This document shows, piece by piece, positions 1 through 58,082 of a stretch of 64,000 nt of DNA. Below the pieces are notes generated by a model that was given only the letters and a program-made list of their open reading frames with translations, did no database searches and was not told where the DNA came from. Both the position numbers and the translations under genes were made by a program. Origin of the DNA: Loxodes magnus (taxonomy: Eukaryota; Ciliophora; Karyorelictea; Loxodida; Loxodidae); contig CAMPDV010000267.1 of NCBI GenBank assembly GCA_946699065.1, positions 333,600 through 397,599 of the forward strand. The letters run 5' to 3'. Every line of letters begins with the position of its first letter. The first letter of the stretch is position 1.

Positions 1-540
1 TAGTTCTTAAAAGAGTAGCTTGCATGTAATCTTCCTGATTTACTAGATATATTTCTTTAGTAGAAAGAGAAAGATTTATTCATTAGTGCAAAAACAAAGG
101 AAGATCTTAAGTTCCATATAGAATATAGTTTAAAGTTAGTAAATAAAAAGTAAATAGGAGGTCCAGAACTAGGTTTTCACTTAAGATTGAGTGCTGGTAA
201 AAAATATAAAATAGATATCTAAAATTTTAAACTATAGACCAAAAATTGAAAGATCTCTTAAAATTGAAAGCAGAAAAGAGAAACTGAATTTAGATTTACT
301 TTATTAACGAAGTATAAAAGTTGATAAAACTTAAGAGAGTAAATTACTCAAAAGTTCATCTAAAAGAGAAGAGATTTTATTGAAAGTAGATATAAAAGAT
401 CTTAATGAAGAGTAAATATTTTATAATTAAAAAGATTATCTAAAAGATAAAATTAAAAAAATGATATAGAATAGCATTGTAAACAGATTTCAGTAATCTA
501 ATTTTAACAGTAGTTATTTTAATTAATTATAGTTATTATT
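1..540 (+). CDS. partial unknown protein, 5' end outside window
   Basis: With TAA/TAG as Gln and TGA as Trp, frame 1 from the first base gives about 150 codons of well-mixed sequence, including KEDLKFHIEYSLKL and GGPELGFHLRLSAGKK, then a Lys/Arg/Gln-rich stretch. The first half has balanced D, E, G and P, unlike random AT-rich translation. No domain was recognised. It lies just before the inverted-repeat arm near 605 and may be the C-terminal part of a gene starting upstream. TGA codons near 248 and 260 would end it under a TGA-stop code. The 3' limit is uncertain. Confidence 0.35.
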
Positions 541-604
541 GGTTAAATATCTTAATAGCAAAAAGCAAGCTTCTAGAACTTATAAGTTCTCTGAGTTCTT
601 AATC

Positions 605-12530: not shown

Positions 12531-12612
12531 TTATTCAAAAGTGCAAATAGAATATATTATGATACATATAACAATACTAGTTCTTAAAAAGCCAAATATT
12601 TAGTTAAAATAT

Positions 12613-15689: not shown

Positions 15690-16850
15690 TATATTAAAGA
15701 GCACAAAACTACTCACTAGTGCGCAGTTCTTTAATGTAATAAATTTCTAACTTTTCAGGAATATTTTTTGGGATAAAAAATTTTTATTCAATTTCAGAAA
15801 TATCTTCTTCTTCCTTCTCATTTATGTCTTCCTTTTTTCATTGCCTCTCTATCCAGATTCTATCTTCTACTTACCTTCTTATGGTTATTTCTTTTATATA
15901 AGTTTAAGTAATCATCTCTTTTTACTTCATTCTACAATTCTCTATTGTATCTTTTCTTTCATATTAGATTTTTATATACTCGTAGAAGCTATCCTTTACC
16001 AGTTCCATAATCCTTACCTATTTCTTAGCTTCATAATATTTTCTTTTCTTTATATCCTTTTTTCTTTGTTCTATAATATGCCTAATGAATTCTTTAGTTT
16101 TTAGAACAATCCCTATTCGTTTTTATAATTCTTAAATCCTAATAAATTTTTCAAATTTAGTCGTTCCTCATATCATGTCAAATAATTAAAGCTCTTTCCA
16201 ATCTGATATTATTATTTCTAAGTTATTAATGCATATTTCTCTTCCTTCTATATATTCTTCGCATTATTCGGTTATATGTTTTTTGTCTTCCTTTAAGTTA
16301 TCGCAAAGGGGATATTTACTTGCTTCTACTAGATGTCTTTTCTTAAAGCAATCTTATCTTCCGTTATATCTTGGTCTTAGTCTAAATATATAAAATATTT
16401 CTTCTATTCTATGCTTATTGTTTCTTAGGTAGTTTGATGGTCCTATTATAAACTCTTCAAATCCAAACTCTCTAAATTGCAGTGTCATTATCATTTATTC
16501 CATTCTTTATCTATCTTCTTCATATTTCTGTATTCTCAAATTGCACGAATAATATTTTAATTTCCTTACCTATTGTTTTGCCCATAAATACATTTGTCTC
16601 TGATCTTTATTTCTGTTTTTATTGCTTTGCATTATTATTCGAATATGAAGTTTCTTCTCTACTTAACTCTATTATAGACCATCAAAGTGTTTTTCCTTTA
16701 TTTTCTATTATTTCACTTCTTATTCTAAACTTTTCAATCATAAATAATGTTGTTAATAAAATTAAAATCACTAAGTAAAGGTATTACATTATTAAGCTAA
16801 TTTAGGAAAAGGTAGTTATAGTAACTTAAGCTATTTATAAAAATAAAAAA
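15690..16850 (-). CDS. retroelement-like C-terminal coding region (family 3)
   Basis: The minus strand reads coherently for about 380 codons: EFGFEEFIIGPSNYLRNN, then EEIFYIFRLRPRYNG, a knuckle-like YPLCDN...HITEQCEEY, and an acidic end EKEEEDISEIEQKFFIP finishing KELRTSEQFCALQ. The Cys/His pattern resembles the C-terminal zinc region of LINE reverse transcriptases. A relative lies at 48180-49400 (minus) with the parallel FRLRAKCNGAQ. The final KELR..E...AL motif is shared with short ORFs at 18207, 39271, 53341 and 55020. No RT core was found, so it may be a 5'-truncated element or a separate repeat family. Confidence 0.5.
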
Positions 16851-16899
16851 TGTTGTTGGATAATTATCTTTTATTTTATGTTTTTCTAACTGGTTAAAA

Positions 16900-17440
16900 T
16901 GGAGTAAGAAGATGAAGTTTGATTCTATGTATATGAAAAGAGACTTTAATAAAACCCTTCCCTCCTATACTTACAAATTTGAAGGATAAAATACATAAAA
17001 CGATATCAAAATCTCTTAATTTCTTGATACAAGCGTGCATAAGCAATATGCTTAATTTTTGATGCTTCTAATTTATAGTCTTTTATCCTAATTTAATATA
17101 AATATAAAAAAATTAAAAATTTGAAAAATCTATAGCTTAACTCATTTTAGTAGGTAATAAAGCAGATAAAGATACAGAAAAATAATTATCTTTTGAAGAA
17201 AGTTTAGTGCAAACATTTAAGTGAGGAATACCTTTTTAAGAAACATCAACAAAGACAGGAATAAATATAGAATAGTTTTTCGAAATGGTTGCACGGATTG
17301 TGATGAATTAAATGCACAATCTATAAAAAGAGCCAGCACTAAAAAAATTAGATTTCCTCTACTGAAAAAGATTAAAAGCTTCAATAAGTAGAATAAATAT
17401 ATTAATCTAGATAAGATTAGTAAAATTCTAAAATACATTA
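16900..17440 (+). pseudogene. Rab-like small GTPase copy (17 kb)
   Basis: The frame contains the G3-region remnant LQIW (Trp as TGA), then ISWYKRAQAICLIFDASN (Trp as TGA), matching the Rab block around SYYRGA..ILVYDITN. After a frameshift near 17200 come FKWGIPFQETSTKTGIN (TGA at W) and EQFFEMVA, the G5 (ETSAK-type) end of the fold. The P-loop is not recognisable and the DTAGQ after Trp is lost. It is one of six Rab-like copies between 16.9 and 36 kb. The family acts as membrane-trafficking switches; this copy is probably inactive. Confidence 0.6.
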
Positions 17441-18120
17441 AACTATAAAATATTTAGATAAAAAGGATTAAATATACGAATAGTGTCATAATAACTTTTG
17501 ATTATTAAAATGTTTACTTCACAACTATTATAAATGAAGCCTTTAAAATACTCGAAAAGATTCCTGAATTAATAAACTTAAAAATAATTAAAGAATATTA
17601 AGTATCTCTTTAACTCAATTTAATTTTAAATTATAACCCATTCTTTAAATTAAGCAAGATATATCTAATTCATATGAAAATAAAGAATTAAATAAGCCAA
17701 AATTTAAAATGAATAGAAATAAATTTAAAATATAAGTCTTCACTTTAATTCGATGGATTAATTTAAAAAAATTAGAGATTAAAATTACTATAAATTGAAA
17801 GAAAGTAAGCTCTAAGTTATCATTAGATAGTTAGAGAAAAATGGATTTATTTCGTAAATGTGGATAAAAATGATATTTGATATGATATAAAATTAAATAA
17901 TCTGACTAAATAAAATTCTAAGAAAAGTTGATTAAAATTAAAAGATTATAATGTTCGTTCCACTGTGATGATTTCCATTATCCAAAATTTGTAAAGTTTT
18001 TGGAAGGATAATAATTTACTTAATTAGTAAATAAAATAAAATAAAAAACAATAATTATTAGAATAAATTTAAAAATAAAAGTTTGACGTTACGTTAATTT
18101 ATTATAGAATTAGTATAAAT
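17441..18120. other. AT-rich interval without recognised gene
   Basis: Low-complexity A/T-rich sequence. No motif, repeat match or coherent frame was found. Confidence 0.3.
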
Positions 18121-18525: not shown

Positions 18526-18529
18526 AATC

Positions 18530-20950: not shown

Positions 20951-21324
20951 TCAAGCTTAGTAAAAAAAACCTAAGATTGACAAATATTTAAAAATGTTTC
21001 TCAAAAATTGTTAAAAAAGGATAGAAATTAAAAAAATTAGCAGTTGAAACAAAAAAAAAATGAAGAAAAAAATATAAATAATGGTTGTGTAAATAAAGAA
21101 GTAGAAAATTGAAAGTAAGAAGAGAGAGAGGAAAATGCAATCACACAATTTAGAAACAAAATAGAAGAAACAAAAAAAACAGGAGTAGGAAGAAATAACT
21201 AGAGGTTGATAATAAACTTACATAAACTCTTACACTTAACATAATTCGTATAAAATAAACTATAAATAGTGCAATTTTGTCCCAATACTCAAAATATTGA
21301 AACTTTTATATGTTATTATTGTTA

Positions 21325-23725: not shown

Positions 23726-23834
23726 TTAGCGCAGAATAATCATTAACTAGAATCATTTCCTAAATAAAATAGGTAGCAATAAATAAATATACAAATTAGG
23801 CACATTATTAATATATAATCTATTTTAAATTGAG

Positions 23835-28751: not shown

Positions 28752-28795
28752 TTTTGTTTAAACTAATAAAATTAAAAAAATAAGATAAAAGTATA

Positions 28796-30340: not shown

Positions 30341-30356
30341 TTTTAGTTTAAATTTA

Positions 30357-32600: not shown

Positions 32601-32619
32601 TTTAAATTCTTATATACTT

Positions 32620-35050: not shown

Positions 35051-35169
35051 TATTTTTATAAATAATATTTTTTGAATTAAATACATTGCTAAGTTTGGAA
35101 ATTTAATTTTTTTTTGATCCTAACTTATTTTAAAAATTCTTATCCTAGTTATTATAGCTTTTAATCGTT

Positions 35170-38540: not shown

Positions 38541-38544
38541 ATAA

Positions 38545-39270
38545 ATAAAAATAGTCATATTAATATAAATTATACAGCTAGTAAATAAGTTGCATTATAA
38601 TAGTTTATTTTAGATAATTATTTTGATATTTTTGCTATTAGTGAAACTTGAACACGAGATCCTTATAGTTCAATAATCCTGTAATAATATCGAACTTATT
38701 TTCAAAATGACAATACTAGAGCAGGTGGAGTATGCTTATTAGTCAAAAAATAAATTGACTCTTGTCAAAATTAAATTGATTTTTCAAGTCTTCCTGGACA
38801 TTTTGTATGCATAAATGTTGAGAAATTAACAATTGTGTCTTGCTATTTGCTCACAAATGAAAAATAAAATATAATTAAGAGTATTGCATATGAATATCTA
38901 AGCAATACCATAAATTTTAATAATCAAAATCCAACTATTCTCAGTGGCAACTTTAACTCTTTAATTCCTAATTATGGCAATAATTCATCACGAATCAATG
39001 ATAATATTTAAAGGTTTATGGATTTGATAGAAGCAAATGATCTATTAGTTTTAAATGATTAATAAGCCAATTCTTTTATTCATAGGGTAAATAATTAAAA
39101 CTACTATAATGACTATTTCATAGCAACATAACATTTAAATTTCGATGACTTCACTGATTTTAAAATTATTCGAGATTCAGGACTAGACTCTGATCATCTA
39201 CCTATAAGTATAACTTTGAAATTTGATTTAAAAAGATTTGAATAAATAAAAATAATAATAATAAATTCGA
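38545..39270 (+). mobile_element. LINE-1 endonuclease domain, truncated copy c
   Basis: Plus-strand frame: SHININYTASKQVALQQFIL, IFAISETWTRDPYSS (Trp as TGA), GGVCLLVKKQIDS, SCYLLTNEK, LSGNFNSLIPNYG and SGLDSDHLPISITL. These are the ordered motifs of the AP-endonuclease domain: Glu of SET, the (G)DFN block with Asp replaced by Asn (SGNFNS), and the terminal SDH. The family nicks chromosomal DNA to prime reverse transcription. The frame ends abruptly at 39270, where a minus-strand repeat fragment begins, so no RT follows. The Asp-to-Asn change and truncation indicate a dead copy. Confidence 0.8.
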
Positions 39271-39640
39271 TTATAGAGCGCGTAGCACTCTCGTTTGTAC
39301 GCAGCTCTTTAAATTAATTTTATTTAATGTCGAAAAAAACATTTTATGGGTCTCTCTTACATTGTTTCCTCTTCCTGCAGTACGTCCCTTTAATTTTTCC
39401 TTCCAAAACATAGGATGCAATATGCAATTAAGGGTAAATTTCCCCGACCTATGATGAAGAAAGTTTCCTCCTGGCATTCAGAGTTCTCATCATATCGCAT
39501 CATCCTTCTCTTGTTAATTGTTTCTCTTCCTCCGATTTATCCTCCGTCCGCGCTAATTTTTTATTTCCCTTGCTAGGCCTCCAAGCAACATCCGAAGGAA
39601 AGGTCTTTCCATCCTATTTAAATTATATTATTATAATAAG
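39271..39640 (-). mobile_element. GC-rich repeat fragment with coding remnant, copy 1
   Basis: About 370 bp sharing high identity with 53341-53710, clearly richer in G and C than its surroundings. Both copies keep a minus-strand frame: NSECQEET.FIIGRGN, then IAYCI.CFGRK and a C-terminal VLRAL/VLCAL. The outer end (39271-39305) forms an imperfect stem, AGAGCGCGTA with TACGCAGCTCT. It is read as the 3' end of a mobile element inserted next to, or into, LINE-1 copy c. The conserved frame in two copies suggests a protein-coding parent; its identity is unknown. Confidence 0.6.
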
Positions 39641-40029
39641 AGCAGCGATTGTATTTTAAATCTTCAAAATTTTAAGACCTAAATACAAAAAACTACTATT
39701 AAAGTCTATTTATAGGATAATATTACTAATTTTAATTGATTGATAGAGATAATGCTGAGAGTTAGTATAATTTTATTTGCTACTTAATTACTTATAATGC
39801 TGATATAGCTATTGGATTGCAAAACGAGAAAAAGCAATTATTATAGATTGCCAAGTTATTTAACTTAATTATTTATCTAAGATAAAAAAGACAATATTTC
39901 ATATTAAAATAGCTTGTTTTTGTATGGAAGGCATAGTTAAGAGGTTAGCAAGCTATTCTAGATTAAAAATAAATCCTATAAGCATTATTTTTTAAATTAA
40001 ATTAAATTAAAAATAATATAGTTTGCTTA
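39641..40029. other. AT-rich spacer
   Basis: No gene or repeat was recognised between the fragment at 39271 and the 3' end of LINE-2. Confidence 0.3.
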
Positions 40030-43000
40030 ATAGCTTTGAAGTTTTAAGTCTAAACTCAATACACTTCTACTTTTAAGTACTCTTGAAAATGTTGTAGTAT
40101 TTCTTCTTGTCTCATTAAGATTAGATTTACTTGTCTTATTTTCATTAAGTTTTAGAAAGAATATATTTGTTTTCATGTTTATTTTATTCTGCTTCATGTA
40201 GATTTTATTATTCTATCAATTTGATTCATATAGTCTTTTTTGCAAAATATTTAATTTATTATGTTTTAATTATATTCTAAGAGCTCTTGTTCTATATTTT
40301 CATAAATATTTGCTTAGTTTATATTATTTTACGCTTTATTTTTGCTTTTAATAATTTTATCTATTTAGGTTTTAATATTATCTATACTTGTTTGGTAGTA
40401 TTTACATTTGAATATGTGTTAGAATGTCTCTTTTTCTTGACATAAGCATTAATCATATTCTTAAGGAATATGTCTTTCTTGAAGATCACTTCTAAAAAAA
40501 AGTAGTTAGGTTCTCAGTCTGAATATTAATTTTGATGGTTGCATTTTCTCTTTGTTCAATAAAAAGTAGGTTATAATTGGCAATTTTTCTACATTTTTGA
40601 ATTACTTTGTTATAATTTTTGCTGTGATCATTTCTTTTTTTCTTTTTTTTGTTGTTTTTGTTATTCTCTAAATTGTTTAATTAAAAAATTGTTCTTTAAT
40701 TTTTACATCAATTTTTTTATCGAATTACATCATATTTAGATTTTATAAAGCTTTTAAATCTATTTTAAATTTCTTTTACATTTTTTTAATTTATTTCTGT
40801 TACTTAGTCTTATTTTTTAACTTATTTAGAATAATTGGATAAACTTTTCATCTTTATTCTTAGATTATTACTATTGATTATATAAGTCATTTAGTTTTCT
40901 ATAAAATTTAAAATATCTTTTTGCAGTTATTTATTCAAATCCAAGTCAGTTAAAATCTATGTGTTGTAACTCATTTCAAGATGCTTATGGCATTTTCATA
41001 TATTATCTTATAATTTATCGTTAACTTACATGTATTTAATTTTTCACCTTTGTTATTCCAGTTTGTATACTATATGGAATTATTTCAGCACCATATTCTA
41101 ATTTAGGTAGAATAAATAATCTGAATAAATTTTTGAAATTAATTGGGATCGTCTTATTAAATCTGCTGTAAAATTACTATTAAAATAAGTACTTGGCCTA
41201 CTAATATTTATTTTGTACTTTTTGTATATGTGTAATTAATTATTTATTCTGATCAATTGTGAATCCTAAATATTCAACAGTTTTCTTTTATTAAATTAGC
41301 TTCCCTTATATTTTCAAATCTAATTTTTTTTAGTTCTCTTATTTCTCTTTACTAATATTAATGCATTCAGTTTTTATTAAGTTTATTTTTAATTTTATTA
41401 TATTGAATATTCTTTAAGTTTGATCTATTAATTATTACATTCTTTAAGCGTTGTTGGAGATTAGTAATAAATCGTCAGCTCATGCTAATTTTGAGTATTA
41501 TGTATTTCCTATCTTGTATCCTAATTTATTATATTATTCTAAGTATTACATAGCAATATCATAATAAATTATGGCTAGTATAGGTCCTGATGAGCTTCCT
41601 TAAAGTATACCATTTTTGTAGTCTATTTTTCTAGTGATTTAGTCTTCTAGTTAAAAGTGTATTTGTACTTGAGAATATATGTTTTTCAATGTTTTTATTA
41701 AGTTATCGGCTATTTTAAATCTTTCTAGTTATTTAAAAAGTAAATAGTGATTTATAGAATCAAACATTTTCTCAATATCAATCAAGGTAAAAATCAACGA
41801 TTCATTTTCTTCCTTTTTTTTCTTACTTTCTTAATAATGATTCATTATCTATTATATTTGTCATATTTTTATTGTAGTTTGCATTTTCTTTATGAATCCT
41901 TTTTAGTCTTTATTAACTTGGTTTTACTCAATTACATCTTTATATATATGGTTTGATATTATCTTGTCGAATATTTTTTAGATTGTATTTATAATTGCTA
42001 TTGGTCTATAATTTTTTCAATCATATTTGGAATCTTTTTTATGGATCATTATTGTTTTAATTTTATTTAGTTCGGCAGGGATTAATTAATCGCGTTAGCA
42101 GTTTTGATAGAATTTTGTTAAAATTTTTCAAAGTTCATGTCCTGCATATTTAATTAATTCATTTGGTATTTAATCAAAACCTGCAGCTTTATTATTTGGG
42201 AGGTATCTTATTATATCAGCAACTTCTTAGTATAATATTTTACTCCATGATTATGCTATTTTTTATTAAAGAATTTTATTTTGTTTGTAGATTTCATCTA
42301 TTTTTATTACTTCTTTAAGTATTTCTTATTGATTAGTATCTTTAAATTAGTTTAATACACTTTCTCAATTTTTAATAAATTATTCTGTCTAATTTGAATT
42401 GAAATTCATATTTAGAGCTTTTTTAGGATTGAAAATTTTATTTGCTTGCTTAGCCATTTCCTGGTTATTACCGTTCAAATTTATTTATTTTTATCCATTT
42501 ATATTTTTTCACATGGCATTCTTCATTTTTACGAATTTTTTCTTTTACCTTTTTGCCTCTAATTTCATTTAGATGACTTCATCATTCATACGGTTAAATT
42601 AGTTTAATTTATTTATATATTATATTCTTGCATTTCTGGCTTTATTCATTTATATCACTACAGATGAAGGCAGTTTTGGCTGATTTTACTGTCTTTGATC
42701 AAGTATCTCCAGAGCTGCAATATGGATTAAATTTTTAATAAATCTGTATTATAACGATAAATTCAAATTTTATATATTATTTTCAAAAAAATCATAAGCA
42801 CCAAGGAATTAGTTTTTATATAATTATAATTTTTCTTAGTCTTACAGTTTATTTAGATTATATATCATTCTTATTTACTAATTTTCTGCATTTAAATTAA
42901 CCGTCATTTATTTTAGCATTATATTCAGTACTAAGAGATAATGGTCAGTATTAACTCTTGTTTCTTTATCTACTGTGAATATGTATTTTGTTGATTACTC

Positions 43001-43621
43001 TAAGTCCTAGTCTAAGAAGATATAGTCAATGATTTATTATCTTTTGTTTTATTTTATTTAATGTGTGGGAATTTATTTTTAATTTGTATCTATGAGTTCA
43101 TTAGCTTATGTAAAATTAAATAATTAGAGATCTGTATTTGTTTAATTATCATAATTATATAGGTGTGCATTAAAGTCTCCAGCAATAATGAAATGTTTAT
43201 TCTAATTTTATTATATTATTTTTCCTATGTTTAAGTAACAATCATTTATGAACTGTTGAGTATAATTACTAGTGGGAAGATAAACATTTATTATTATAAT
43301 TTCATCCAAAATAAATGCTTAAATCCTATTAAAATTTTCCTCAAGTAATATTTCTTGAACGTCTAGGTCCTTTTTAAAGAAAGAAATTAAACCTGCTTTT
43401 TAAGTAAGACCTGGCAAGAAGAATTATTTAAAAGATTTATGTAGTGTTTTTGGTTCTTTTTTAATAAAAGTTTCTTATAATAGAATAATGTTGAGATTAT
43501 GTTTCTTAATTAATTCAAATATTATTTCTTTTTTGTCGAAATATCCTCCACCTATATTAAACGATCCTATTTTTAAAATTTTTTCTTTTCTTTAAATCAT
43601 TTTTAAATTTTCTCTGAACAT
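40030..43621 (-). mobile_element. LINE-2 ORF2: endonuclease and reverse transcriptase
   Basis: The ATG at 43621 leads into KILKIGSFNIGGGYFDKKEI, IILLQETFIKKEPK (catalytic Glu), IIAGDFNAHLYNYD, QQIIDYIFLDQD and VNTDHYLLVL: all ordered AP-endonuclease motifs with catalytic residues kept. The RT follows with FTLIDIEKMFDSINHYLLF (motif A, near 41750-41800), NGILQGSSSGPILAIIYYD (motif B) and SKLAWADDLLLISN (motif C). The Trp before ADD is TGA (41480-41482). The C-terminal zinc region is CLCQEKETFQHIFKC near 40390-40500. At roughly 1,190 codons it is a typical LINE ORF2. If TGA were only a stop, the enzyme would end inside its active site. It is the best candidate for a recently active element. Confidence 0.85.
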
Positions 43622-43790
43622 TTTTAGATTATCTAGTTTATAATTAAATTAATTAAATTATTCAAAATTGGGAAAAAGTTAATAATATTCATCTAGGTAG
43701 TTGTATTATATTTTTTCGAATTTAGTAAGATTGTTTCTTAAGTGAATATATTTTTAGTAATCTTAATTTTAATTCATTATTCATTAAGGA

Positions 43791-45202: not shown

Positions 45203-46486
45203 TCAGATTTATTCTTGGTGATTTGCTACTCCAAGATCGAATTTTTGTTCTTGGTTATTTGCTTATTTTGTTTCTAAGTCCTAGCTATAAATACTCCTTG
45301 CTTTGTTTCTTTCTATATTTTATGGTTCTTAAGAGTTATTATTCAAAATAATAAACTATTAATCCTCTTTTTACCCAAAATTTTTAGTCTTTTCCTATTA
45401 TCTACTTAGATTTATGGTATTTTAACTTTCTACATAAAAAGATTCTTAGTTGAGCTGCAGTTCCAGATTCTTAAGATTAAGTTAAGATTGAAAATCTTAC
45501 TATGCTTAATTGGGTTCTAAAATGTCGTCAATTTAAATATTATTTTAGTTATAAGAGTCATATAACTACTTATTTATTTCAGTTTGTTGAGCTTAATTGC
45601 TTTAGTTTTTAGTTTCACTTTCTATATTAATCTTTAGTTATTATTCCAAGCCTTAAATTTTTATATTTATATCCAAAATCTAGGTTTTGTTTTTACCTTT
45701 CCTTTATTTTTTTAATGCTTAAATTTTTTATCCTATAATTTTGCTACAGTATTTAAAATGATGACCTTCTTCATTACAGAATAAACAACATATTTGTTTT
45801 TTATGTCTTAATTTTAGTTTTATATCTAAGTATTGTATGATGTTTGGAAGTTTATTTATTTATTCTTATGCCAATTTAACAAGTAATGTAAAAGTTCTAA
45901 TTTTTGTTATATCTTATTCTTGCTGCTTTTCATTATCTAGTTGTATTTCAACTATTTAGATATTTAGGATTAAATCAAAAATCATAAGAATATCCTGGAG
46001 GCTAATTGGTTAAGTTGGTAAAATGGTAATTTTATATTTATCTAAGTTAAGGTTTTTCAAATAGACTTTTTCTTAGATTTAAAAGAGGAGTTTAAGTCCA
46101 GATTGGCTATCTAATATTTCTATATTCCTATGATCATTAATAAATTTTTTAAGGTCTTTTTCATTTAAGAAATAAATAATAATATTTTTCTTAAAGTTCA
46201 ATCTCATTCCACATATAAGTTCTGCTTTGTTATTTTTCTTCGGAAAGTAATTTTTGCTAAGTTAGTCAAATATATTCTTGTAGATCTTATACATTTATGA
46301 CTGCTATAAATCAAAAGTTTCAAAGTATTATTAAGTTAAAGCAATGAGTTGATTTAGGTTATTTTAGTTTTATAGTTATATTAGTTGTTATAAGGAGTGA
46401 ACCTTATCCAAACCCTTAACCACAATCTCTTGCTGTCCTGAGACTAACTTGAGCGCGGTAATAGGATTTAAATTTTTAAGTTCCAT
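45203..46486 (-). CDS. LINE-2 ORF1, CCHC zinc-knuckle protein
   Basis: The ATG at 46486 to TGA at 45205-45203 is exactly 428 codons in one frame with TAA/TAG as Gln. It starts MELKNLNPITALKLVSGQ, has a mixed alpha/beta-like N-terminal half (AELICGMRLNFKKNIIIYFL, an RRM-like feel) and the knuckle ICCLFCNEEGHHFKYC (C-x2-C-x4-H-x4-C) near residue 250. The tail is Gln/Asn-rich. This is the Gag-like nucleic-acid-binding protein of the element. It lies upstream of the coil ORF and ORF2 on the same strand, giving a compact element of about 6.5 kb. The intact frame and absence of in-frame TGA before the end suggest recent activity. Confidence 0.75.
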
Positions 46487-46859
46487 ATTTTTTTTTTATA
46501 AGCATTATTTATACTAATTTTGAAAGTGAAAAAAAATAAAAAGCAAAGAAAAGATATTATGACCTTAAGAAAGATGCTTAAGTAATGTTTAATTAAGCTA
46601 AGAAACTAATAAGTCCAAAAATTCGTAAATAAATGAATTATAATTAAAACTAACAGTGATTGTTTATTAATCGTTAAGGAACTCTAGTTTTTAATAAGCA
46701 TTCAAATCTTAGTTAAGAAGAAATAGAATTTTCCAATAATAAGACAAATGGAATATATAAAATCAAGTCTTTTATCAACAACTATGAATTGAGTCATCTT
46801 TAGATTATGCCTCTTTTTTCGGATCTTGAAATTAAAAAATAATATCTTAACTAGCAAGC
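46487..46859. other. 5' flank of LINE-2, no gene recognised
   Basis: AT-rich. The divergent LINE-1 RT fragment on the plus strand begins downstream, near 46860. A possible 5' UTR or promoter of LINE-2 would lie here, but no motif is identifiable. Confidence 0.3.
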
Positions 46860-47700
46860 AATAAAGCCTCAGGTTGTGATGATCTTAAATCTGAACTTAT
46901 TAAATAATGAGGGTAAGAATTATATAAAATAATTACTCATTTTATAAATAATATGTTAAGAACGTTTAATTAACCGAATAATTTGAAAAAAGTTAATATA
47001 CTTTTTATATTCAAATAAGGAAGTAAAAATATTTGAAGTAATTGGAGACCTATTGCTTTGATAAATTGCTTCTTAAAAATTTATGATAAAGCAATTACTT
47101 AAAGACTTTACAACTATATATATAAACGAAATTATTTTACACTAAGCTTAGTTTGGATTTCTCCGTAAACGTTCTACTACTTAATAAATTTTAACTGTTA
47201 AATAATATTGATTTTCATATAGATGATCAAGAAAGAAATAATTAATTGCAACTTTAATTGGCGAAGAAAAGATGCTTGATAGTATATATGAGAAATTACT
47301 TTTTGATCATTTAAGAAGAATAAGGTTCCCGCTAAACTTAATTCTTGCTTTAGAATCATTATATAGCAATATTGATGCTATGTTTGTTATAAATGAATAT
47401 GATACTAGAACAAAAAAGGTTAATAATGGTGTTCTATAATGAAGTAGTCATGATCCTTTACTTGAAATTCTATACAAAAAAATTGCAAAAAGATATTTGA
47501 AATGCAATTAAAAAAACTAGAATTTAAAGTTTGATCCAGAACTTTCATTGTGCGTGGTTTTGCTGATGATTAAATCGAATATGCGGTATTCTAAAAAAAA
47601 ATTCAGAGATTGTTAAATGACAAGATCAATATTTTAACTAGAGTTAAACATAATATGACTGCAAAAAAAATAAAACGATTTAATTTTTGAAAAAAAATAA
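46860..47700 (+). mobile_element. LINE-1 reverse transcriptase fragment, copy d
   Basis: The plus strand reads SGCDDLKSELIKQ, KNIWSNWRPIALINCFLKI (RT motif 1; one Trp as TGA, one as TGG), TLIGEEKMLDSIYEKLLFDH (motif A with the catalytic Asp replaced by Gly), VNNGVLQ followed by TGA where Gly is expected (motif B), and VRGFADDQIEYA (motif C intact). Frameshifts separate the blocks. It aligns with LINE-1 copies a and b (LLFDHLRRI..PL.L.LALES). Loss of the motif A Asp makes it inactive. It is truncated on both sides. Confidence 0.75.
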
Positions 47701-47764
47701 AAATAAAAACATGAATCTAACTTAAACATTAATGGTTATTCAATCAAATAAAAAACTTCAATCA

Positions 47765-47965
47765 ATTAATTTCGGATTGGAAGAGAAAAGAGATTTAAGG
47801 TTGTTTTTATCTAAGAGATTTACACTGGATGTCTGGGTTGGATCGGACTAATTAATTTCGGATTGGAATAGAAAAGAGATTTAAGGTTGTTTTTATCTAA
47901 GAGATTTACACTGGATGTCTGGGTTGGATCGGACTAATTAATTTCGGATTGGAATAGAAAAAAGA
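47765..47965. repeat. 86-bp tandem duplication, about 2.3 copies
   Basis: Units begin with ATTAATTTCGGATTGGAA at 47765, 47851 and 47937. The first two are nearly identical; the third is cut short. The units carry TGGATGTCTGGGTTGGATCG, GC-richer than the flanks. It lies at the end of RT copy d and may be a small 3' tandem repeat of the element. Confidence 0.85.
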
Positions 47966-48179
47966 TTTAAATCTTTTTTGGATGATAAAAGGCTAATAAA
48001 TCGACAACATAAGAAAGTTATAAATGAAATGAAAAATGAAATCAAAGGTTAAAAGTAATAGAAAATAAAAGTTTAAAATCAACAACCGATTAATATCTAA
48101 AAATTAAAAAATAAAAAAAAAACTAAAAATGTTGAAGAGAGAGTTTATCAATGAATGATCTAACCAATCATTTTATTTA
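47966..48179. other. spacer
   Basis: A-rich stretch with poly-A runs. Nothing recognised. Confidence 0.3.
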
Positions 48180-49400
48180 TGTGGTTTCACCATTGATATT
48201 TTGCCACAAATTATGAGAAATTCAAAAGTATGAGTATTCTTTGAAATTATCTTATCAGACCTGAATCTTCTAAATTTTCTTCCATTTATTCTAAATTTCT
48301 TCCAATAGATTCATTATATCATTATCTGAATAGTTATAGTCAATCTTCATCATTATGTCTTTTTAAAACAGTAGAATTCTATTTCTATCTATTACTTTTC
48401 CAACTCTTTCATTTGTCTTTAGATAGTTTAGCTATCTGTTAGTTTTTTCTGATGATATCGCAAGTTCCTTTCTACATTTTCTTAGAATTGTCATTAAGTT
48501 GCTAAATCATATTTTTATTTTTGTCCTCTTGATAAATTATTACTAATTCAAATATGCTCGTGTGATTTTGCTCTATAGTCTTTACCGTTTTTTTCTAATA
48601 AGGAAGAATTTTTTAAATATAACCCCATTATATTTTCTTTTATATATCTTGCAGAAAATTTTTAATGTGACAATCTTTTTCTTTTCTTTTGATTACTTGT
48701 AGATTTCGTATCAGATTTTCGAATTTGTAATTTCCTCACACTATTTCTTCAAGCCTGAGTTTAAGAAGGCTTATTTTTATTAGTTATCACTGATAATTAC
48801 GTTCGTGATATTTTCTATTAACTATTCTCTTTCTTCTTTGTATTATCTGCAATCTTCTATTATATGGATCTCATCTTCCTTTCTATAATTGCAGAATTAA
48901 AATGCTTCACTCTCTATTAGATTTTTTCTTTCTTTTCATTGTTTATTGTGCTCCATTGCATTTGGCCCGTAGTCTAAATAAGTATCATATTTCCTGTTTT
49001 CTGTGTTTGTTGAATCTTAGGAAGTTTGGTATTCCTTATATGAATTGTTCCATTAATTCACTTCTAATTTTTTGCAGGTGATTATATTTTACATTCGTGT
49101 AATGGAATTTACATCATTGTGGAACTAATTTTCCATCTATTCCTTTTCATTTTTCTTGTATTATTATTTCGTTATTGAGTCTGTTTCAAATATAGAGTTA
49201 TTCCTCTTTGGTAATTGACATAATCATCCATCCAATGTTGATTCTTAGTTTAGGAGCAATTTTCTTCTGAACGTTAACATACGTTATCACATATAGTATT
49301 TTAGTTTAAGGAAATGTAGTTCATTCTCCAGGATTTCGTTTTATGGGCAAAAAGGTCCATCTATTACAACTCTTAATGATCTAAGATGCATGATTTCCAA
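48180..49400 (-). mobile_element. retroelement-like C-terminal region (family 3), copy 2
   Basis: Minus-strand frame: YVITYVNVQKKIAPKLRI, NIGWMIMSITKEEQLYIW, EKWKGIDGKLVPQWCKFHY, NKHRKQEIWYLFRLRAKCNG. After a shift comes the knuckle-like SEAFQFCNYRKEDEIHIIED followed by CRQYKEERE. Four or more Trp are TGA. It parallels the 15690-16850 copy (FRLRPRYNG; HITEQCEEY). The upstream end meets the 3' end of LINE-1 copy b at 49417, so the two may be one chimera, or one inserted beside the other. A C-terminal LINE domain is likely, but no RT palm motif was found within it. Confidence 0.5.
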
Positions 49401-49416
49401 TTTATTAATTAATTAG

Positions 49417-52400
49417 TCGAAATATAATATTTTCAATATTTAAGAATAGTGAGACATAGTTGCAATAGATATAGTTTAGACTATAAATATTACAAATATG
49501 TTGAAAGATAAAAGTTTGTTAATTTCAATCAGTTTCTTCTTGTTCTTTCTCTATCATATATTTTTATTAATTTTCTTTGATGAAATTTTTCTTTTTTTTC
49601 TTCTAGAAACTCTTCTAACAACTCATCTTGTAGTTTAAACATTTCAAGACGCTTTTTGAGTAATTTGAAATTAAAATTTTTGATGAATTTGTCTATTTTA
49701 GGAATTTGATTTTTTGAAAGATGTTTGCTTATATAGTTTTAGTCATAAAGAATTAGTTTCTTTTTGTCTTTTTCTTTAAGAGCTTTATGAATTTAGAATT
49801 CCTCAATAATATCTGCATTTTATTAGCAATAAAAAATAAGATCAGTTTCATCAAAATCTTAGCCACATAAGCAAATAATGCTATATCTAACGTTAATGTA
49901 ACGATTACTGAATACTTATTGAAAATTATAAGAAAAATTTCTTAGTTTATAGATGAAATAATCTCTCTAATATAGTACTTATTATATTTGGTATAAGTAA
50001 TTTCAGGAAATACACTTTAATTATTTTATATTTAGTCTATAATTCTTTTTGCTGTTGGCATAAGTGTATTTCTAGAGAGACATTCCATTAAGAATTTATG
50101 CTTTATTTTTTATTCCTTGAGTTTATAAAAAATACATATTATTCTAAACAAATGACATGTCTCAAAATTATACAAATCGATACATTTTTTTATATGTTTC
50201 TAGTATGGTAAATTAAATTTAGTGCATTTTTCTAATAAAAAAGCAGTGTCTGAGTTAGGATTTTCTTTGCTGTATTATATCAATTTTTAATAAAAGTGCA
50301 TTAACTTTTGAGTTAAATTATGTGTAAAAAGAAGCCAGTTTAGATCAATAAAGCATGAATCATTGAATGTAAATTCTTAAGATCTAAACGCCTATCTTGA
50401 AATAAGCCTTTACGATTTTGCTATTTTGCTATTTTGCTTTTTATTCCTTTAATTCCAGAAATAGTAGCTCACGGAGTAATATCACTTCCATATTAAACTT
50501 TAGGCAAAATAAAAGTTCTACAAAGAGTTTTGAAGCTGAGAGGGGATACTAAAGCATATTTAGAAAGTATTACAGTAGCTTTTTAAATAGCTACTCTGTG
50601 TTTGGTAGCTACTGCTGTACAATGTAATTTGTAATTTTATTTTATTCCTAACTAATATCCTAAATAGTTAACTTCATCTTTTTAAGCAATTGGAATTCCA
50701 TTGAGCTTTAGAGTAATAGAAGGTTAGCTTTCTTTTCATTTATTTTTTTTCAAGAATTCTATTACTTCACATTTGGCTACATTAATTGTAAGTTTTACTC
50801 AATCAAAAATTGTAGATGTAGCTTGTAATAATTTTTAGGCATTTTTCTAGGAAGAGGATATTTGGATTAATTCATCAGCAAAGGCTCGTACTACGAAAGT
50901 TTTAGATAATATTTGAAATCCTAATTTCTTCTGATTATCTTCTAAATATCTTATAACAATATCATAGTATAAAATTGCAAGTACAGATGCATGACTACTT
51001 CCTTATAGTAATCCATTGTTATATTTAATTGTTCTTTTAAGATATCCATCAATTATAAACTTAGCATCAACATTATCATAAAATGATTCTAGTGCCATAT
51101 TAAGTCAAAGGTAACCTAAGTCTTCTAAGATGGTCAAAAAGTAATTTCCTAGATATGCTATCAAACATTTTTTCTACATCTATTAAAGTATCAATTAATT
51201 ACTTTTTATGAGATCATCTGCGATGCAAGTCTATAATTTACTAAATAGTTCAAATTTGCTAAATAGTGGAGCGTTTACGAATAAATCCATATTAGGCTGG
51301 ATGTAAAATGTTTCGTTCATAAATATAATGTTAAAATCTTTATGTTAGTGCTTTATCATAAATTTTAAGTAGACAGTTCAATAAAGCGATAGGTCGTCAA
51401 TTACATCAATTACTTTTGTTTCCCTTTTTGAAAATCGGAAGAATGTTTATTTTTTTCATTGCATTAGGTATTTTAAATGTTCTAAGCATGTTATTAATGA
51501 AACTTGTAATAATTTAATGCAAATCTTAATCACCATATTTAATAAGCTCAGCTTTAGACCCTCATTACCTGTAGCTTTATTATTTGCAAGCTAAGATATA
51601 ATTTTTTTAATTTCAAATCATGTAAAAAGAGGCATTTTTTATAAATGACTTAATTCCTAGTTTAAGATAAAAAATTTATTTCTAAATATTCCATCTATTT
51701 TTCTATTTGAGAAGTAAAAATCTATCTTACTTATTTTCGAATGTTTATCAAAAACGTTGGTTTCTCAATTTTCAATAAATTGCTGTTTTTATTTAAAGTT
51801 AAAATTCATCTAATTAAGAATTTTAGGGTTTATTAGATTCTAAGCTTGTTTAAACATTATTGAAGCATTTTTGTTAAGATCTTTATGTTTTTCCTTAGCT
51901 TTTTATTTTTTTCATTTCCAAAATTTGTGAAGATAATGTTTATAAGATTAAATTTTAAGCTAGTAAAGTTTGATAACTTCTTAATTATGACATCCATACA
52001 AAGCTAATGCGTTCTAATATGCAATATTATCTTTTTTTACTTGAACAAATAACATAGTTAAGTAACTTGGCAATTGATAATAGTTTTTTCTTTAATTTTA
52101 AGATCCAAGCGCAATCTCAGCATCATAACTAATAAGATCGCAGATGAATTGATACTAATTTTCAACATCGTTTTAACCAAGTTACTAGAATTTATAAAAT
52201 TATCCCAAAAATAGTTTAATAATAGTTTCTCGCGTTCAGATCCTATAATTTAGAAATTTTAAAGAGTAATCGTTATTGTTAATCTTATTCACTTCTTTTT
52301 AAATTATAATTTAATGTAATATTTAGTAGAAAATTATCAATATACAAATCCGAATTTTGGATAACTTTATAGTCAACAAACATCAGAATTTAAATGTTAA

Positions 52401-53335
52401 TTTGCCAAGAAGTAGTCATTACAATAGCATTAATTATTCACTCTATGAATAAATGTGTTGGACTCTTAATAATTTAAAATTATTAATTCATTTGCTTCTA
52501 TAAAGTCTAGTAATCTTTAAGTATTATTATTGATTTGTTATGAATTATTACCGTAGTTAGGAATTAAGGCATTAAAGTCGCCACAAAGGATAGTAGGGTT
52601 TTGGTCACTATTATTTATGATATTGTTAAGGTATTCATATGCAATGTCCTTATAAATATTTTATTTTTCATTTTTAGGCAAATAACATGATGCAATTATT
52701 AAATTTCTAACTCTCACGCTTATAAAATGTCTAGTAAGATTTGAGAAATCTAATTCATTTTAACAAGAATCAAGCTACTTTTTTACTAATAGACATACTC
52801 CACCTGCAAGAGTATTTGCATTTTAGTAATAGGTACGATATTGTTCTAAAACAATTGGGCAATATGTTTATTACGTTCATGCTGCTTTTATTGAAAAAAT
52901 GTTAAATTCATTATCAAGGATGAATTATTATAATGCCACCTGTTTACTAGCTAATGAGCTTATATTTACATGTCCTATTTTTATTTTCTTAGATTCTTGC
53001 GCTTCACCAGGGAGTCTTCCCTAATATACGCAAATATATTCAGTCCCTTATGAATCTATTTAAATATGTACCAGTTCTTTTTTATAATCAGGGTGTTAGT
53101 GGAAATATTAGATAAATGTAAATTAATTAGATCGAATAAGATTCTAGTAGTTTATTGTCTATTTTAATAACATTTTAGTTACTATTTACAGTTTCATGAG
53201 ATAATTTTTATTAATCGTTATATACCATCCTTGAATATTGTTCATCTAATATTAGTTCCTCCTTCACGAACCTTGTCTGATAAAGTTTTAGAGTTAAGGA
53301 GATTAAAAATTTTATCATAAATAAATAATTTGGAT
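49417..53335 (-). mobile_element. LINE-1 copy b: endonuclease plus reverse transcriptase
   Basis: The longest LINE-1 copy. The minus strand starts with a leader (DKIFNLLNSKTLSDKVREGG), then the endonuclease from about 53000: KIGHVNISSLASKQVALQQF, SIKAAWT (Trp as TGA), GGVCLLVKKQLDS, TILCGDFNALIPNYG (catalytic Asp present). After about 600 degenerate bases the RT begins, colinear with 30357-32600, and carries a QGSS motif B. Motif C reads AFADELIQIS: the second catalytic Asp is Glu, which should cripple polymerisation. The endonuclease glutamate is also not in its usual SET context (KAA). Frameshifts occur around 52350 and in the RT. It is an inactive but nearly full-length reference for the family. 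Confidence 0.85.
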
Positions 53336-53340
53336 TATAG

Positions 53341-53710
53341 AGCGCATAGCACTCTCGTTGGTGCGCAGCTCTTTAAATTAATTTTATTTAATGTCGAAAA
53401 AAAATTTTATGTCTCTCTGTCCCTGTTTTCCCTTCCTGCAGTACCTCTATTTTTTTCCTTCCAAAGCATATGATGCAATATGCGATTACGGGTATATTTC
53501 CCCGACCTATAATGAAGTTAGTTTCCTCCTGGCATTCAGAGTTCTTCAGCTTGTTACATAGGCTTTCTCTTGTCATTGATTTATCTTTCTCCGATTTATC
53601 CTCCGTCTGCGCTTATTTTTTATTTGCCTTGCTGGGCTCCAAGCAACATCCGAAGGAAAGGGCTTTTCACCCTATCTATATTTTAATAGTTATAAATTCG
53701 ATTTTATTTT
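53341..53710 (-). mobile_element. GC-rich repeat fragment with coding remnant, copy 2
   Basis: Second copy of the 39271-39640 unit. The minus strand has an ATG-led frame MTRESLCNKLKNSECQEE, IIGRGNIPVIAYCIICFGRK, ending IFFRH and then the stem-forming end (53341-53375). It abuts the 5' end of LINE-1 copy b, again at the TTATAGAGCGC boundary. Conservation of the frame between copies and the higher GC content set it apart from the neighbouring DNA. Confidence 0.6.
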
Positions 53711-54309: not shown

Positions 54310-54990
54310 GTTTTGTTAAAATTTCCATTTCCAGTCTTCTTCTGGGTCTTCTTCTTGAAGCACATATCTATCTGTGCTGTGTTCTCCCTTTTTTATTTTC
54401 ATAATCTTGCTTCAATCAATCTTCATTCCAAGCATTTGTTCATTTCTTCTTTGTCCTGCTATAATCACGTCTTCTAGAATTTCATGCCCTGCGTACATCT
54501 TTCTTCTATAAATTCTTCCTTCCGCAGTGCAATATAGTTTACTTATGGTTCTTCACAGCTCAAAATTTTCTGCTTTCTGTTTTTATTGGAATTAGAAGCA
54601 GTTTCTAACTTTGCGTCCTGGTCTCTTGCAGTATCAGCATCGCAGTATTTTCCTATTGGGAATATCTTTTATTGCAGGCTGTTTCTCCACATCCATAGTA
54701 TCATTCCCTGTATATTTTGCAAAAATATGCTTTCAGTTATTTCTGCGAATTAGTCGAATTTTTTCTCTAATCTTCTATTTTGTTGTTTCCTGTCTATTTA
54801 TTTTCATTTTTCATTTATTCTTATTAATTGTACATCAGGTGCTCTATTTTTCTTTCTAGTTCTTGAACTGTTCTTAGGAGGTTGAAATTTTCTTATTATA
54901 GCAATTAGAGTGCTTAAAATATATTTTATTGCTCGTAAGATGAATCCTTTTGAGAAGAGGTTTTTTACAAGAAGTTTTCCATTTTTTCCA
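54310..54990 (-). CDS. CCHC-type zinc-knuckle protein (54-kb copy)
   Basis: The minus-strand frame KILRCWYCKRPGRKVRNCFQ corresponds to the knuckle of the 34-kb copy, but the His ligand is Arg (C-x2-C-x4-R-x4-C). It continues FELWRTISKLYCTAEGRIYR, MYAGHEILEDVIIAGQRRN, GMKIDWSKIMKIKKGEHS and YVLQEEDPEEDWKW. The Trp of CWYC (54634-54636) and LWR (54553-54555) are TGA, where the 34-kb copy has TGG. The frame is uninterrupted for about 120 codons, better than in the 34-kb copy, yet the zinc site is damaged. It is probably an ORF1-type retroelement protein. Confidence 0.6.
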
Positions 54991-55019
54991 TTATATTTAT
55001 CGTATACTACATTGCAAGT

Positions 55020-55350: not shown

Positions 55351-55731
55351 TATTTATTTAAATTTTTTTATCTATTTGTATTAAAGTCATTAAATTTTTA
55401 TCATTATGTTTTGCAATTTAATTTTTTTATAGTATTTAGGATTTTTTTTTTATTTAACATTTTCTCAGTATTCTTATTTCATTTCTATTTAAAATATTTT
55501 ATTATTTACATTTCATTTTAGTTTTATTTATATAATTATTTTTTATTTTTTTTAATTCAAAATACTAAATTATTTGTAATTACATTTAAGTTTTTAAATT
55601 CTATCTTAAATTTTTTTTGTATTTTATTATTTTTATGTTAAATCTTTTTTTTAAATAATAAAATTAATTTATCAATATTTATTTCAATATAATTAGTTTC
55701 TATATACTAAATTTTTTTAAAATCTTTATAA
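55351..55731. promoter_or_regulatory. AT-rich upstream region of the WD40 gene
   Basis: About 380 bp of extremely T/A-rich DNA with no coding motif, ending in AATCTTTATAA directly before the ATG. It must contain the promoter if the gene starts at 55732, but no specific element is identifiable. Confidence 0.3.
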
Positions 55732-58082
55732 ATGGATAGCAATCAATGTCCAAACTGTAAAAAGCAATTCAATTAAGACGAGAGTATCTAAGCAAATACC
55801 ATGTGGTTGCATTTCATGTTTAACTTGTCTTAAAACAGTTTATTAGGTTTTTTAAAAAACTGTTTATATAAAACATAACTAAGTCTTTAACATAAATCCT
55901 GAAGAGTTACAAGGATATCAAGTTTAACTACAATTTCAGTAAGAAGTTCTGCAACGGTAAGAGGCTTTAATTGATCAAATGTAAATCAATGAGTTGTTTA
56001 AGTGAATAAAGAATTACCAAGGCAAGAATTAAAAAGAATATAATAAGATAAAGGAAGTTATCTAGAATGTTGCTTAATTTATGCATAATATTTAGGCTCT
56101 ATCGTTTCATTAGATTTTAAAGATTTTATTAGACTAGTTTACTAGTAGTAGCAGTAAAGTTTAAAATTTATTGAATCGTTTAACTGAGCTTCAAGCAGCA
56201 AATCAGTTACAATAAGATTAAGCCTAAAGAATGGGTTAATAGTAAAATCGTTAACAGTAAAATGGTCAAGCCTAATAATAGTTTTAGTAAATCTTGCGAG
56301 AGATAGAAGAGTTAAAGAGAGAACAGAACTAACAATTAGACAGTTAAAACTTAAGAAACAATATCTAGGCATGCATGTTCAATTTTTTCAGATACTTAAA
56401 TGAGAATGCATAAGATCAGTAATTAACGTTGAATAAAGCTGAGTATTTAGTCTAAAAGTTTTTCAAGAAATTTAAGTTTACAAAAGGACATATTTAGCAA
56501 TAAATTCCTGTTGTGCAATAACAAAGTCAGATAAAATCGTAAAATACCGATCTCTAAATTAAAAAAGAAATACAAAATATCTGTTAAGAATAATAAGAGC
56601 AAGAAATTACTTAAAAATAAAGTCAAGATATCGTTTAGTCTAAAGAATATGCAATCAAGTTAAATATAGCTAAGAAGTAAAGACAAGTTATCGAAGGTAG
56701 AACTTTAGTTACTGCAATGGAATAAAAGTTTAATAATCTTTAGAATGATTTCAAATTTGATAACCGAGTAATTGAAGTTTGCTAATAATAAGCAAACTTA
56801 ATTATGCCTCTGATTCCAAACCCCTCTAATTTAATGTTAAATAACTAACTATTTTTCAGCAATTAAAATTTCCAAAATACTGACTTTACTAACTCTGATT
56901 TATCGGACACTACTTTCACAAATTGTAACTTCGCCAATTCAATTCTCTCATCAGCCAACCTATGTAACACTAAGTTCCTCAACTGTGACCTCTCTAACGC
57001 TAACTTTACCTCAATCTCTACTGAGCACCCACATATATTAACTGGACACTCTTCCTATGTCACTTCCGTAGCCATCTCTCCAAACTCTAATTTAATAGTA
57101 TCTGGCTCATACGACAAAACTCTTCGAATCTACAACATAGCTGAAGGTACCTGTAAGACCATGAGTGGTCACACAGATTATGTATCATCTGTGGCTATAT
57201 CCAGTGATTCAGAGTTCATCGTATCGGGAAGTGAAGACACTACTCTTAGACTTTACAATATCAAGACAGGTACCTGTAAGAACATGAGTGGTCACACACA
57301 TTATGTATTATCTGTGGCTATATCCAGCGATTCAGAGTTCATCGTATCGGGAAGTTCAGATAAGACGGTGAGACTATGGGACGTCAAGACAGGTACCTGT
57401 AAGACCATGAGTGGTCACACTAGTTTTGTATTATCTGTGGCTATATCCAGTGATTCAGAGTTCATCATATCGGGAAGTTAAGATTATACGGTGAGACTAT
57501 GGGACGTCAAGACAGGTACCTGTAAGACCACGAGTGGTCACACAAATCATGTATATGCTGTGGCTATATCCAGTGATTCCACTTGCATCATATCTGGATC
57601 GTATGACAAAACTATTCGTTTATGGAACTCTAAAACACTGTAATGTACAAAGGTCTTATCGGTACACACCTCTTATATCACTTCGGTAATATTCTCAAAT
57701 AACAACAATTATATCTTATCTGGATCTTATGACAAGAGTATAAGAATATGAAATATCAATAATGGATAGTGTGAATGTGTACTATTGGGTCATACAGACA
57801 CTGTGGGTAGTTTATCATTATCTAAGGACAACAATTGGTTGGTATCAAGCAATTAGAGCAAGTTCAAATCAGCCTAATCAAGTGATTACAACATTCGAAG
57901 ATGGAACTTAGGAAGGATATTGAATGGAGTAGACACAACTAACTAGTAATAGGTAAGTTCAAATCTACCACATTTAGTAGACTGACTTGAATAGAATATA
58001 CGCTGACTATGGCTCAAGTTTTAAGAATTGTGTACTGACTAATACTATAATGAGTGTGGAGGACATAGAGATCATCAGGTGA
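55732..58082 (+). CDS. RING-like / coiled-coil / pentapeptide / WD40 protein
   Basis: ATG 55732 to TGA 58080-58082, about 774 residues after removing one candidate 25-nt intron. A RING-like finger starts CPNCKKQFNQDE and, after a +1 shift at 55799, continues KQIPCGCISCLTC. A Gln-rich coiled coil follows (residues about 60-340). Then come pentapeptide repeats (DFTNS DLSDT TFTNC NFANS ILSSA NLCNT KFLNC DLSNA NF; about 385-430) and seven WD40 repeats with GH and WD/WN signatures (from about 57020). The propeller has the canonical seven blades, so this is a plausible protein-interaction scaffold or ubiquitin ligase. TGA is read as Trp at 56003-56005 and at the blade-6 WD Trp (57749-57751). Blades 2-5 are almost identical at DNA level. 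The gene is much richer in G/C over the propeller than elsewhere. The 55799 shift could be a sequencing error, a mutation or programmed frameshifting. Confidence 0.85.
57148..57640 (+). repeat. near-identical 123-bp WD40 repeat units
   Basis: GGTACCTGTAAGA-initiated units recur every 123 bp (41 codons) at 57148, 57271, 57394 and 57517. Blades differ by few bases, mostly in the GH-loop codons (DYV, HYV, SFV, NHV), the variable surface positions of a propeller. Flanking blades 1, 6 and 7 are diverged. Confidence 0.9.
57953..57977 (+). other. candidate 25-nt intron
   Basis: GTAAGT at the 5' end and TTTAG at the 3' end bound 25 bases. Removing them joins NQQQ to QTDLNRIYADYG and restores a frame that runs to the TGA stop. 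Without removal the frame shifts. Length 25 is not divisible by 3, so retention would change the protein. Such tiny introns are typical of several ciliates. Confidence 0.65.

Follow-up and report, generated by a model that had tools for sequence, protein, structure and literature searches.

In its macronuclear DNA, the karyorelict ciliate Loxodes magnus almost certainly uses NCBI code 27, in which TAA and TAG encode glutamine and TGA means tryptophan inside genes and stop at their ends, with UGA likely read by the published 4-bp-stem tRNA-Trp(CCA) mechanism. We analyzed a 64,000-nucleotide stretch of this genome (here, the window), which forms the end of contig C267 (positions 333600 to 397599 of 397,599 bases), and followed its in-frame TGA codons through searches of the same assembly (705,730,643 bases in 7843 contigs). 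An earlier sequence-only reading of the window had claimed a karyorelict-type code, with TAA and TAG as glutamine and TGA as both tryptophan and stop. That claim holds genome-wide, in protein kinases and in the release factor eRF1, and it agrees with the published nuclear code of L. magnus, table 27, with UGA as tryptophan or stop (PMC11441545). The code, the organism, and the tRNA mechanism are already in print. The 64-kb window by itself favors the tryptophan reading of TGA without proving it, because many of its TGA carriers, namely, reverse transcriptase (RT) copies a, b, and d and the Rab-like copies, contain frameshifts or also carry TGA at sites other than tryptophan.

TGA at conserved tryptophan columns of protein kinases

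A protein kinase search of the assembly gave 136 scored matches, of which 130 were read, the last six of the list being left out. These matches had E values from 3e-77 to 3e-66, and most covered nearly the whole domain model. Their 33,284 codons included 148 TGA and 166 TGG, and 86 of the 130 domains held at least one TGA.

A tally of the consensus residues at TGA in an aligned family had been proposed. When it was carried out on the kinases, with column consensus computed without the TGA cells, TGA was concentrated in tryptophan columns. It filled 105 of the 287 cells in the three columns with a tryptophan consensus and 8 of the 13,759 cells in other columns that were at least 50% conserved (Fisher p of about 1e-175, with cells treated as independent although the genes are related). 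The remaining TGAs lay in variable columns (34) or a gappy column (1). At conserved arginine, glycine, glutamine, serine, and cysteine columns, TGA occurred in 0 of 257, 0 of 1549, 0 of 130, 0 of 390, and 0 of 260 cells, respectively, and at leucine columns it occurred in 1 of 1947. The tryptophan of the DxWSxG motif was encoded by TGG in 63 domains and by TGA in 51; the other codons there were TTT (7), TAT (5), TAC (2), and TTC (2), with TAG and TAA both at 0. Among 105 sequences made non-redundant at 90%, the same position had 48 TGG and 44 TGA. The second tryptophan column held 29 TGA, 19 TGG, and no TAA or TAG, and the third held 25 TGA, 39 TGG, and 4 TAA. Glutamine in the 130 domains was encoded by TAA (594), TAG (296), CAA (342), and CAG (120).

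These counts bear directly on a rival explanation. It takes TGA to be nothing but a stop (code 6), so that each in-frame TGA would mark a nonsense mutation in a pseudogene; the enrichment at tryptophan would then follow from the AT-rich genome, where TGG becomes TGA by a transition. Besides that transition, the frameshifts in RT copies a, b, and d and in several Rab-like copies speak for decay, as do the TGAs at non-tryptophan sites in RT copy d and in the 28-kb Rab-like copy. The sequence-only reading had countered that TGG is rare, so that decay would seldom put TGA at tryptophan. This argument is weak and does not exclude decay by itself, because TAA, a common glutamine codon here, and TGG are each one transition from TGA; the share of decay TGAs expected at tryptophan is 19% (transition-reachable source codons only, weighted by their abundance in the kinases). 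A single G-to-A change turns TGG into TGA or TAG equally easily. Decay of TGG should therefore yield TAG as readily as TGA, yet the DxWSxG tryptophan shows TGA 51 times and TAG never, which excludes decay at this position. That TAG, a glutamine codon here, is absent demonstrates that selection keeps tryptophan there and that TGA satisfies it. Two further results stand against decay: TGA is carried by most of these near-full-length matches (the 86 of 130 given above), and it is missing, but for the single leucine cell, from conserved columns of the six other residues listed. What decides the matter is that neither TAG nor TAA occurs at the DxWSxG tryptophan and that TGA hardly ever falls on other conserved residues. 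Decay is refuted for the kinases, and as a general account of in-frame TGA in this genome, it is barely credible. The comparison of TGA with TAG at a conserved tryptophan is a clean test that separates reassignment from pseudogene decay. A germline origin from Tetrahymena or Paramecium was also considered and was rejected on the kinase codons and the size of the assembly.

TGA as a stop codon and the eRF1 genes

Two eRF1 genes, L140 and L141, lie about 35 kb apart on contig C196. The L140 frame has 436 codons with TAA and TAG read as glutamine, and it aligns to eRF1 structures at an E value of about 1e-158. Both genes end DPDEDFL-TGA, with further in-frame TGAs within a few codons. The guanine-plus-cytosine (GC) content is 33% in the eRF1 coding sequence and 20 to 22% in the next 100 nt, resembling the 33.5% and 18.6% published for L. 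magnus (PMC11441545). The first match for the eRF1 family, L139, looks by eye like Pelota and was set aside.

A look at eRF1 variants had been suggested as well, and it revealed an alanine in the stop-recognition domain, at the column of human Ser70 in the alignment of L140 to 1dt9. L141 also has alanine at this position, as judged by eye. L140 keeps NIKS, and its YLCDNKF motif reads FLCENTF; we take the Ser70 numbering and these two motif names to be the standard ones. Yeast Ser67 and human Ser70 are presumably one and the same eRF1 site. The alanine seen here may be compared with the Ser67Gly exchange of Blastocrithidia (PMC12153298).

The three gene ends that we saw, those of the two eRF1 copies and of a WD40 gene in the window, are all TGA, with no TAA or TAG. 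They bear on a second rival, the Condylostoma-type code (table 28), in which TAA and TAG would be stops too. Its sense meanings are identical to those of table 27, and heterotrichs are the sister group of karyorelicts (PMC11441545). In Condylostoma magnum, unlike under code 27, all three codons serve as genuine stops (PMC12153298), whereas both eRF1 copies and the WD40 gene here end at TGA. The predicted intron of the WD40 gene is 25 nt long, whereas in heterotrichs about 95% of the introns measure 15 bp (PMC11441545). We consider table 28 to be very improbable for L. magnus.

Table 27 matches our data in every feature compared: TAA and TAG as glutamine, TGA as tryptophan and stop, tiny introns, and a coding GC content of about 33%; against the consulted parts of PMC11441545, no difference is shown. 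That source also reports that sense UGA is depleted just upstream of the true stop. With the table 28 code of C. magnum and with Parduczia sp., the code found here has in common a UGA that means tryptophan and takes on its stop meaning near transcript ends (PMC4967479). UGA usage is 0.042% in C. magnum and 0.120% in Parduczia (PMC4967479), compared with 0.44% here (148 of 33,284 codons in the kinase domains, a figure for these domains and not for the whole proteome).

tRNA-Trp genes and the decoding of UGA

A pattern search of the assembly for tRNA-Trp(CCA) gave 129 matches, and the reversed-pattern control gave 0. Among the 100 matches listed, the 27:43 pair was mismatched in 97, leaving a 4-bp anticodon stem, and fully paired in 3. 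They are arranged as follows.

C67:482311-491193 (L143-L161 region): tandem array, 48 genes listed, 27:43 A.C, spacing of about 187 nt
C148:155452-168710: tandem array, 49 genes listed (48 on one strand), 27:43 T.C, mostly 241 nt apart
C110 (L142, L163, and L164): three dispersed genes whose anticodon stem has the normal 5 bp

At every sampled place, tRNAs were called by both ARAGORN and Infernal, and cmscan found the 27:43 pair to be nonstandard in L143 and L162 and standard in L142, L163, and L164. L164 has a lower score (51.2 bits) and is perhaps decaying. In one stretch of the C67 array, a TATA-like box lies upstream of the tRNA-Trp gene and a T-run follows it. The idea that arrays are unique to tRNA-Trp was dropped; other tRNA genes are multicopy too, and some form short tandem series (42,786 candidates, of which 63 were scored).

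A tryptophan tRNA reading UGA had been proposed as something to look for, and the 4-bp-stem tRNA-Trp(CCA) is a good candidate, its decoding being predicted from sequence. Because these genes are present, the genome fits the published readthrough mechanism. A tRNA-Trp with the ordinary CCA anticodon and a broken top anticodon-stem pair would read UGA as a near-cognate codon, an eRF1 altered in its stop-recognition domain would act beside it, and termination would occur at UGA near the 3' end, with distance to the poly-A tail as the sense/stop rule suggested by the literature. The 4-bp-stem mechanism has been shown for Blastocrithidia and Condylostoma, and the same source credits Swart et al. 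2024 with having already found this tRNA in Loxodes (PMC13092985). The main text of PMC11441545, supplements aside, mentions tRNA 0 times. Our genes share the CCA anticodon and the broken top pair of the anticodon stem with the published 4-bp tRNA-Trp (PMC13092985, PMC12153298). Unlike in that system, 27A.43C and 27T.43C occur here in two large arrays, and three 5-bp genes are listed elsewhere.

Alternatively, UGA might be read by a dedicated cognate tRNA-Trp(UCA) instead of the 4-bp-stem tRNA-Trp(CCA). In other systems a cognate suppressor tRNA is the most common solution, and a tRNA-Trp(UCA) is present in the mitochondria of ciliates (PMC4967479, PMC13092985). In a search confined to the same tRNA backbone, however, tRNA-Trp(UCA) had no perfect match, and the 100 listed of 127 one-mismatch matches were all CCA. 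Published work, moreover, places the 4-bp tRNA in Loxodes (PMC13092985). We regard a dedicated UCA tRNA as improbable, and the 4-bp-stem tRNA-Trp(CCA) as the likely reader of UGA.

In-frame TGA in the window

The window has a GC content of 23% and shows long frames once TAA and TAG are read through. Pfam searches detected non-long-terminal-repeat (non-LTR) retrotransposon domains in it, and rRNA families had no match within it. A raw six-frame self-comparison of the window was dominated by low-complexity matches and was dropped. A WD40 gene and its surroundings occupy the region from 55.7 to 58.1 kb.

56006 to 58082, plus strand: WD40 gene with a coiled-coil stretch, a pentapeptide-like stretch, and WD40 repeats (the first two labels given by eye)
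57749 to 57751, plus strand: TGA at a WD40-blade tryptophan position, SIRI[TGA]NI
57953 to 57977, plus strand: predicted 25-nt GT-AG intron, GTAAGT...TTTAG
56003 to 56005, plus strand: further in-frame TGA, ELFK-TGA-IKNYQ, directly upstream of the WD frame
55732 to 55850, plus strand: RING-like CPNC and PCGCISCLTC halves split over two frames, upstream of the WD40 gene

Spliced, the frame from 56006 has 683 codons, with 1 TGA, 5 TGG, 38 TAA, and 16 TAG, and it ends at TGA 58080-58082. The TGA claimed for the blade tryptophan at 57749 is indeed the codon found there. The putative intron is in keeping with those published for L. magnus, which average 19.3 nt, with 93% at 25 nt or less (PMC11441545). 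TGA had been said to close genes at 58080, 45203, and 43791. The first does so only after the 25-nt intron is removed, and the second is present on the minus strand; the third did not stand, the in-frame TGA being 43783-43781. TGA 56003-56005 is possibly tryptophan if the WD40 gene begins at a candidate ATG at 55732. The RING-like frames there can be joined by two GT-AG candidates (28 and 37 nt), each of which removes part of CPNC, and Pfam zf-C3HC4_4 gives this start only 15 bits, under the cut-off of 30. A search for homologues of the WD40 protein was overwhelmed by WD40 proteins of bacteria. Among 150 WD40 matches listed from the assembly, internal TGA was present in 36 and TAA or TAG in none (counted by eye, with many being near-identical array units). 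Long arrays of near-identical WD40 repeats lie on C1503, C119, C9, C272, and C620.

The retrotransposon copies contribute most of the TGA comparisons within the window.

40566 to 43777, minus strand: copy c, non-LTR retrotransposon open reading frame 2 (ORF2), endonuclease and RT in one frame
41482 to 41480, minus strand: TGA in place of the aromatic residue of the RT [F/Y]ADD motif, LA[TGA]ADD
45203 to 46486, minus strand: CCHC-bearing ORF1 near copy c, ending in TGA 45205-45203, with neither tryptophan nor another TGA; start predicted
49000 to 53400, minus strand: copy a, aligned stretch (994 codons to c, 8 frameshifts)
30300 to 33000, minus strand: copy b, aligned stretch (617 codons to c, 2 frameshifts)
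46400 to 48000, plus strand: RT copy d, aligned stretch (413 codons to c, 2 frameshifts; no Pfam match)
38400 to 40200, plus strand: endonuclease copy e, aligned stretch (274 codons to c, 1 frameshift; SET[TGA] at 38649)

With TGA read as tryptophan, copy c matches PF14529 (3.5e-12), PF03372 (1.3e-7), and PF00078 (3.3e-26), all in one frame, as expected for non-LTR retrotransposons of the long interspersed nuclear element type, with endonuclease and RT in a single ORF2. The frame contains 10 TGA and 1 TGG in 1070 codons; the two other frames contain 22 and 36 TGA. The TGA reported for RT motif C (WADD, 41480) is at 41482-41480, and that of the endonuclease SETW motif is at 38649 on the plus strand, with copy a also having TGA there (52879, minus strand). 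For the published L. magnus macronuclear assembly (706 Mbp), about 2,700 RVT_1 and 1,200 Exo_endo_phos_2 copies are given (PMC11441545).

When copies a, b, d, and e were aligned to c with TGA scored as neutral, identities were 347/994, 229/617, 149/413, and 60/274 aligned codons, respectively. Copy a shared 3 TGA sites with c (p = 8e-5), copy b shared 2 (p = 0.002), copy d shared 1 (p = 0.09), and copy e shared 0; copies a and b are closely related (DNA 30367-32605 of b is 92% identical to 49420-51665 of a), so their two p values are not independent. Codons for the same tryptophan differ between copies. The NWRPI tryptophan is TGA in copies a and b, TGG in d, and TAT in c; that of RRWS is TGA in a and d and TGG in b; and that of DLNWL is TGG in a and b and TGA in c. 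The sequence-only reading had allowed that decay also contributes, and the 8, 2, and 2 frameshifts of copies a, b, and d in their best alignments bear this out.

Similar swaps are found in the CCHC and Rab-like copies.

34687 to 34698, minus strand: CCHC copy, CWYC encoded TGC TGG TAT TGC
54628 to 54639, minus strand: CCHC copy, C[TGA]YC encoded TGC TGA TAC TGC
16700 to 17500, plus strand: Rab-like copy in two frames; TGA at the G3 tryptophan (16980) and SWY (17025)
19150 to 20050, plus strand: Rab-like copy; TGA at the G3 tryptophan (19366)
23200 to 23950, minus strand: Rab-like remnant lacking a Pfam match; SWY site with TGA (23610)
28200 to 28850, minus strand: Rab-like copy with a one-frame Ras match (1e-15); TGA at the G3 tryptophan (28577), SW (28532), and several non-tryptophan sites
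32979 to 33460, minus strand: Rab-like copy in two frames; TGA at the G3 tryptophan (33307)
35050 to 35850, minus strand: Rab-like copy; TGA at the G3 tryptophan (35555) and TGG at SWY (35510)

The exchange of TGG and TGA described for CWYC and LWR in the CCHC copies was found again: ERFKLW ends in TGG at 34 kb, and the 54-kb copy reads NFEL[TGA]R (LWR matched by eye). Pfam Ras matches were obtained for the 17-, 19-, 28-, 33-, and 35-kb Rab-like copies and not for the 23-kb copy. Four copies had been credited with TGA at the G3 tryptophan, and we found five, at 16980 and 19366 on the plus strand and at 28577, 33307, and 35555 on the minus strand; DNA similarity links at least some of the copies, so the five are not independent. 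The SWY swap was likewise as described, with TGG at 35510 (minus strand) and TGA at 17025 (plus strand), 23610, and 28532 (both minus strand). The 17-, 28-, and 35-kb copies also have in common a TGA before [E/G]IPF, where the 19-kb copy reads LGIPF, with leucine; this is not a usual Rab tryptophan.

Several observations weigh against reading TGA as both tryptophan and stop. In the kinases, these are the 34 TGAs in variable columns and the 8 at other conserved residues. In the window, copy d has TGA opposite glutamate, isoleucine, alanine, methionine, and glycine codons of c, and the 28-kb Rab-like copy has several TGAs away from tryptophan sites; the glycine and the Rab-like sites had already been pointed out as counterexamples. 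Outside RT homologues lack a tryptophan consensus at all 10 TGA sites of copy c (the ADD site has 67 phenylalanine and 48 tyrosine of 119, and reference residue 944 has 7 tryptophan of 113); these homologues are too distant to inform the copy c sites. The eRF1 gene L140 uses TGG only for tryptophan (4 TGG, 0 TGA), and in one WD40 array the WD motif position is TGG 182 times and TGA 2 times (in overlapping loci, with units counted repeatedly). Lastly, our own evidence for TGA as a stop is the three gene ends, those of the two eRF1 copies and the WD40 gene, and the rest comes from the literature.

Other features of the window

From 58084 to 64000, up to the contig end, the window consists of a 100-bp satellite with mixed unit variants and a strong GC skew (0.695 at 60 to 64 kb). 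A 19-bp tandem repeat (26139-26456, 16.7 copies, 99% matches) adjoins inverted copies at 21324-22041 and 26441-27158, which are 98% identical. A tRNA-Val(TAC) gene at 28794-28865 on the minus strand has a weak score (33.5 bits).

Implications

An ambiguous stop/sense code was correctly readable from a single 64-kb raw stretch of DNA. The TGA:TGG ratio differs by gene class: 10:1 in the copy c retrotransposon, 148:166 in the kinases, 0:4 in eRF1, and 2:182 at the motif of one sampled WD40 array. As a tentative and rather unlikely idea, two tRNA-Trp(CCA) pools may divide labor, with the 4-bp array genes making UGA a near-equal tryptophan codon and the few 5-bp genes reading UGG only. If this were true, tryptophan codon choice would follow gene class. 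Judged against a limited search of the literature, two points may add to what is published on Loxodes magnus: how large the tRNA-Trp arrays are and how unevenly TGA is shared among gene classes.

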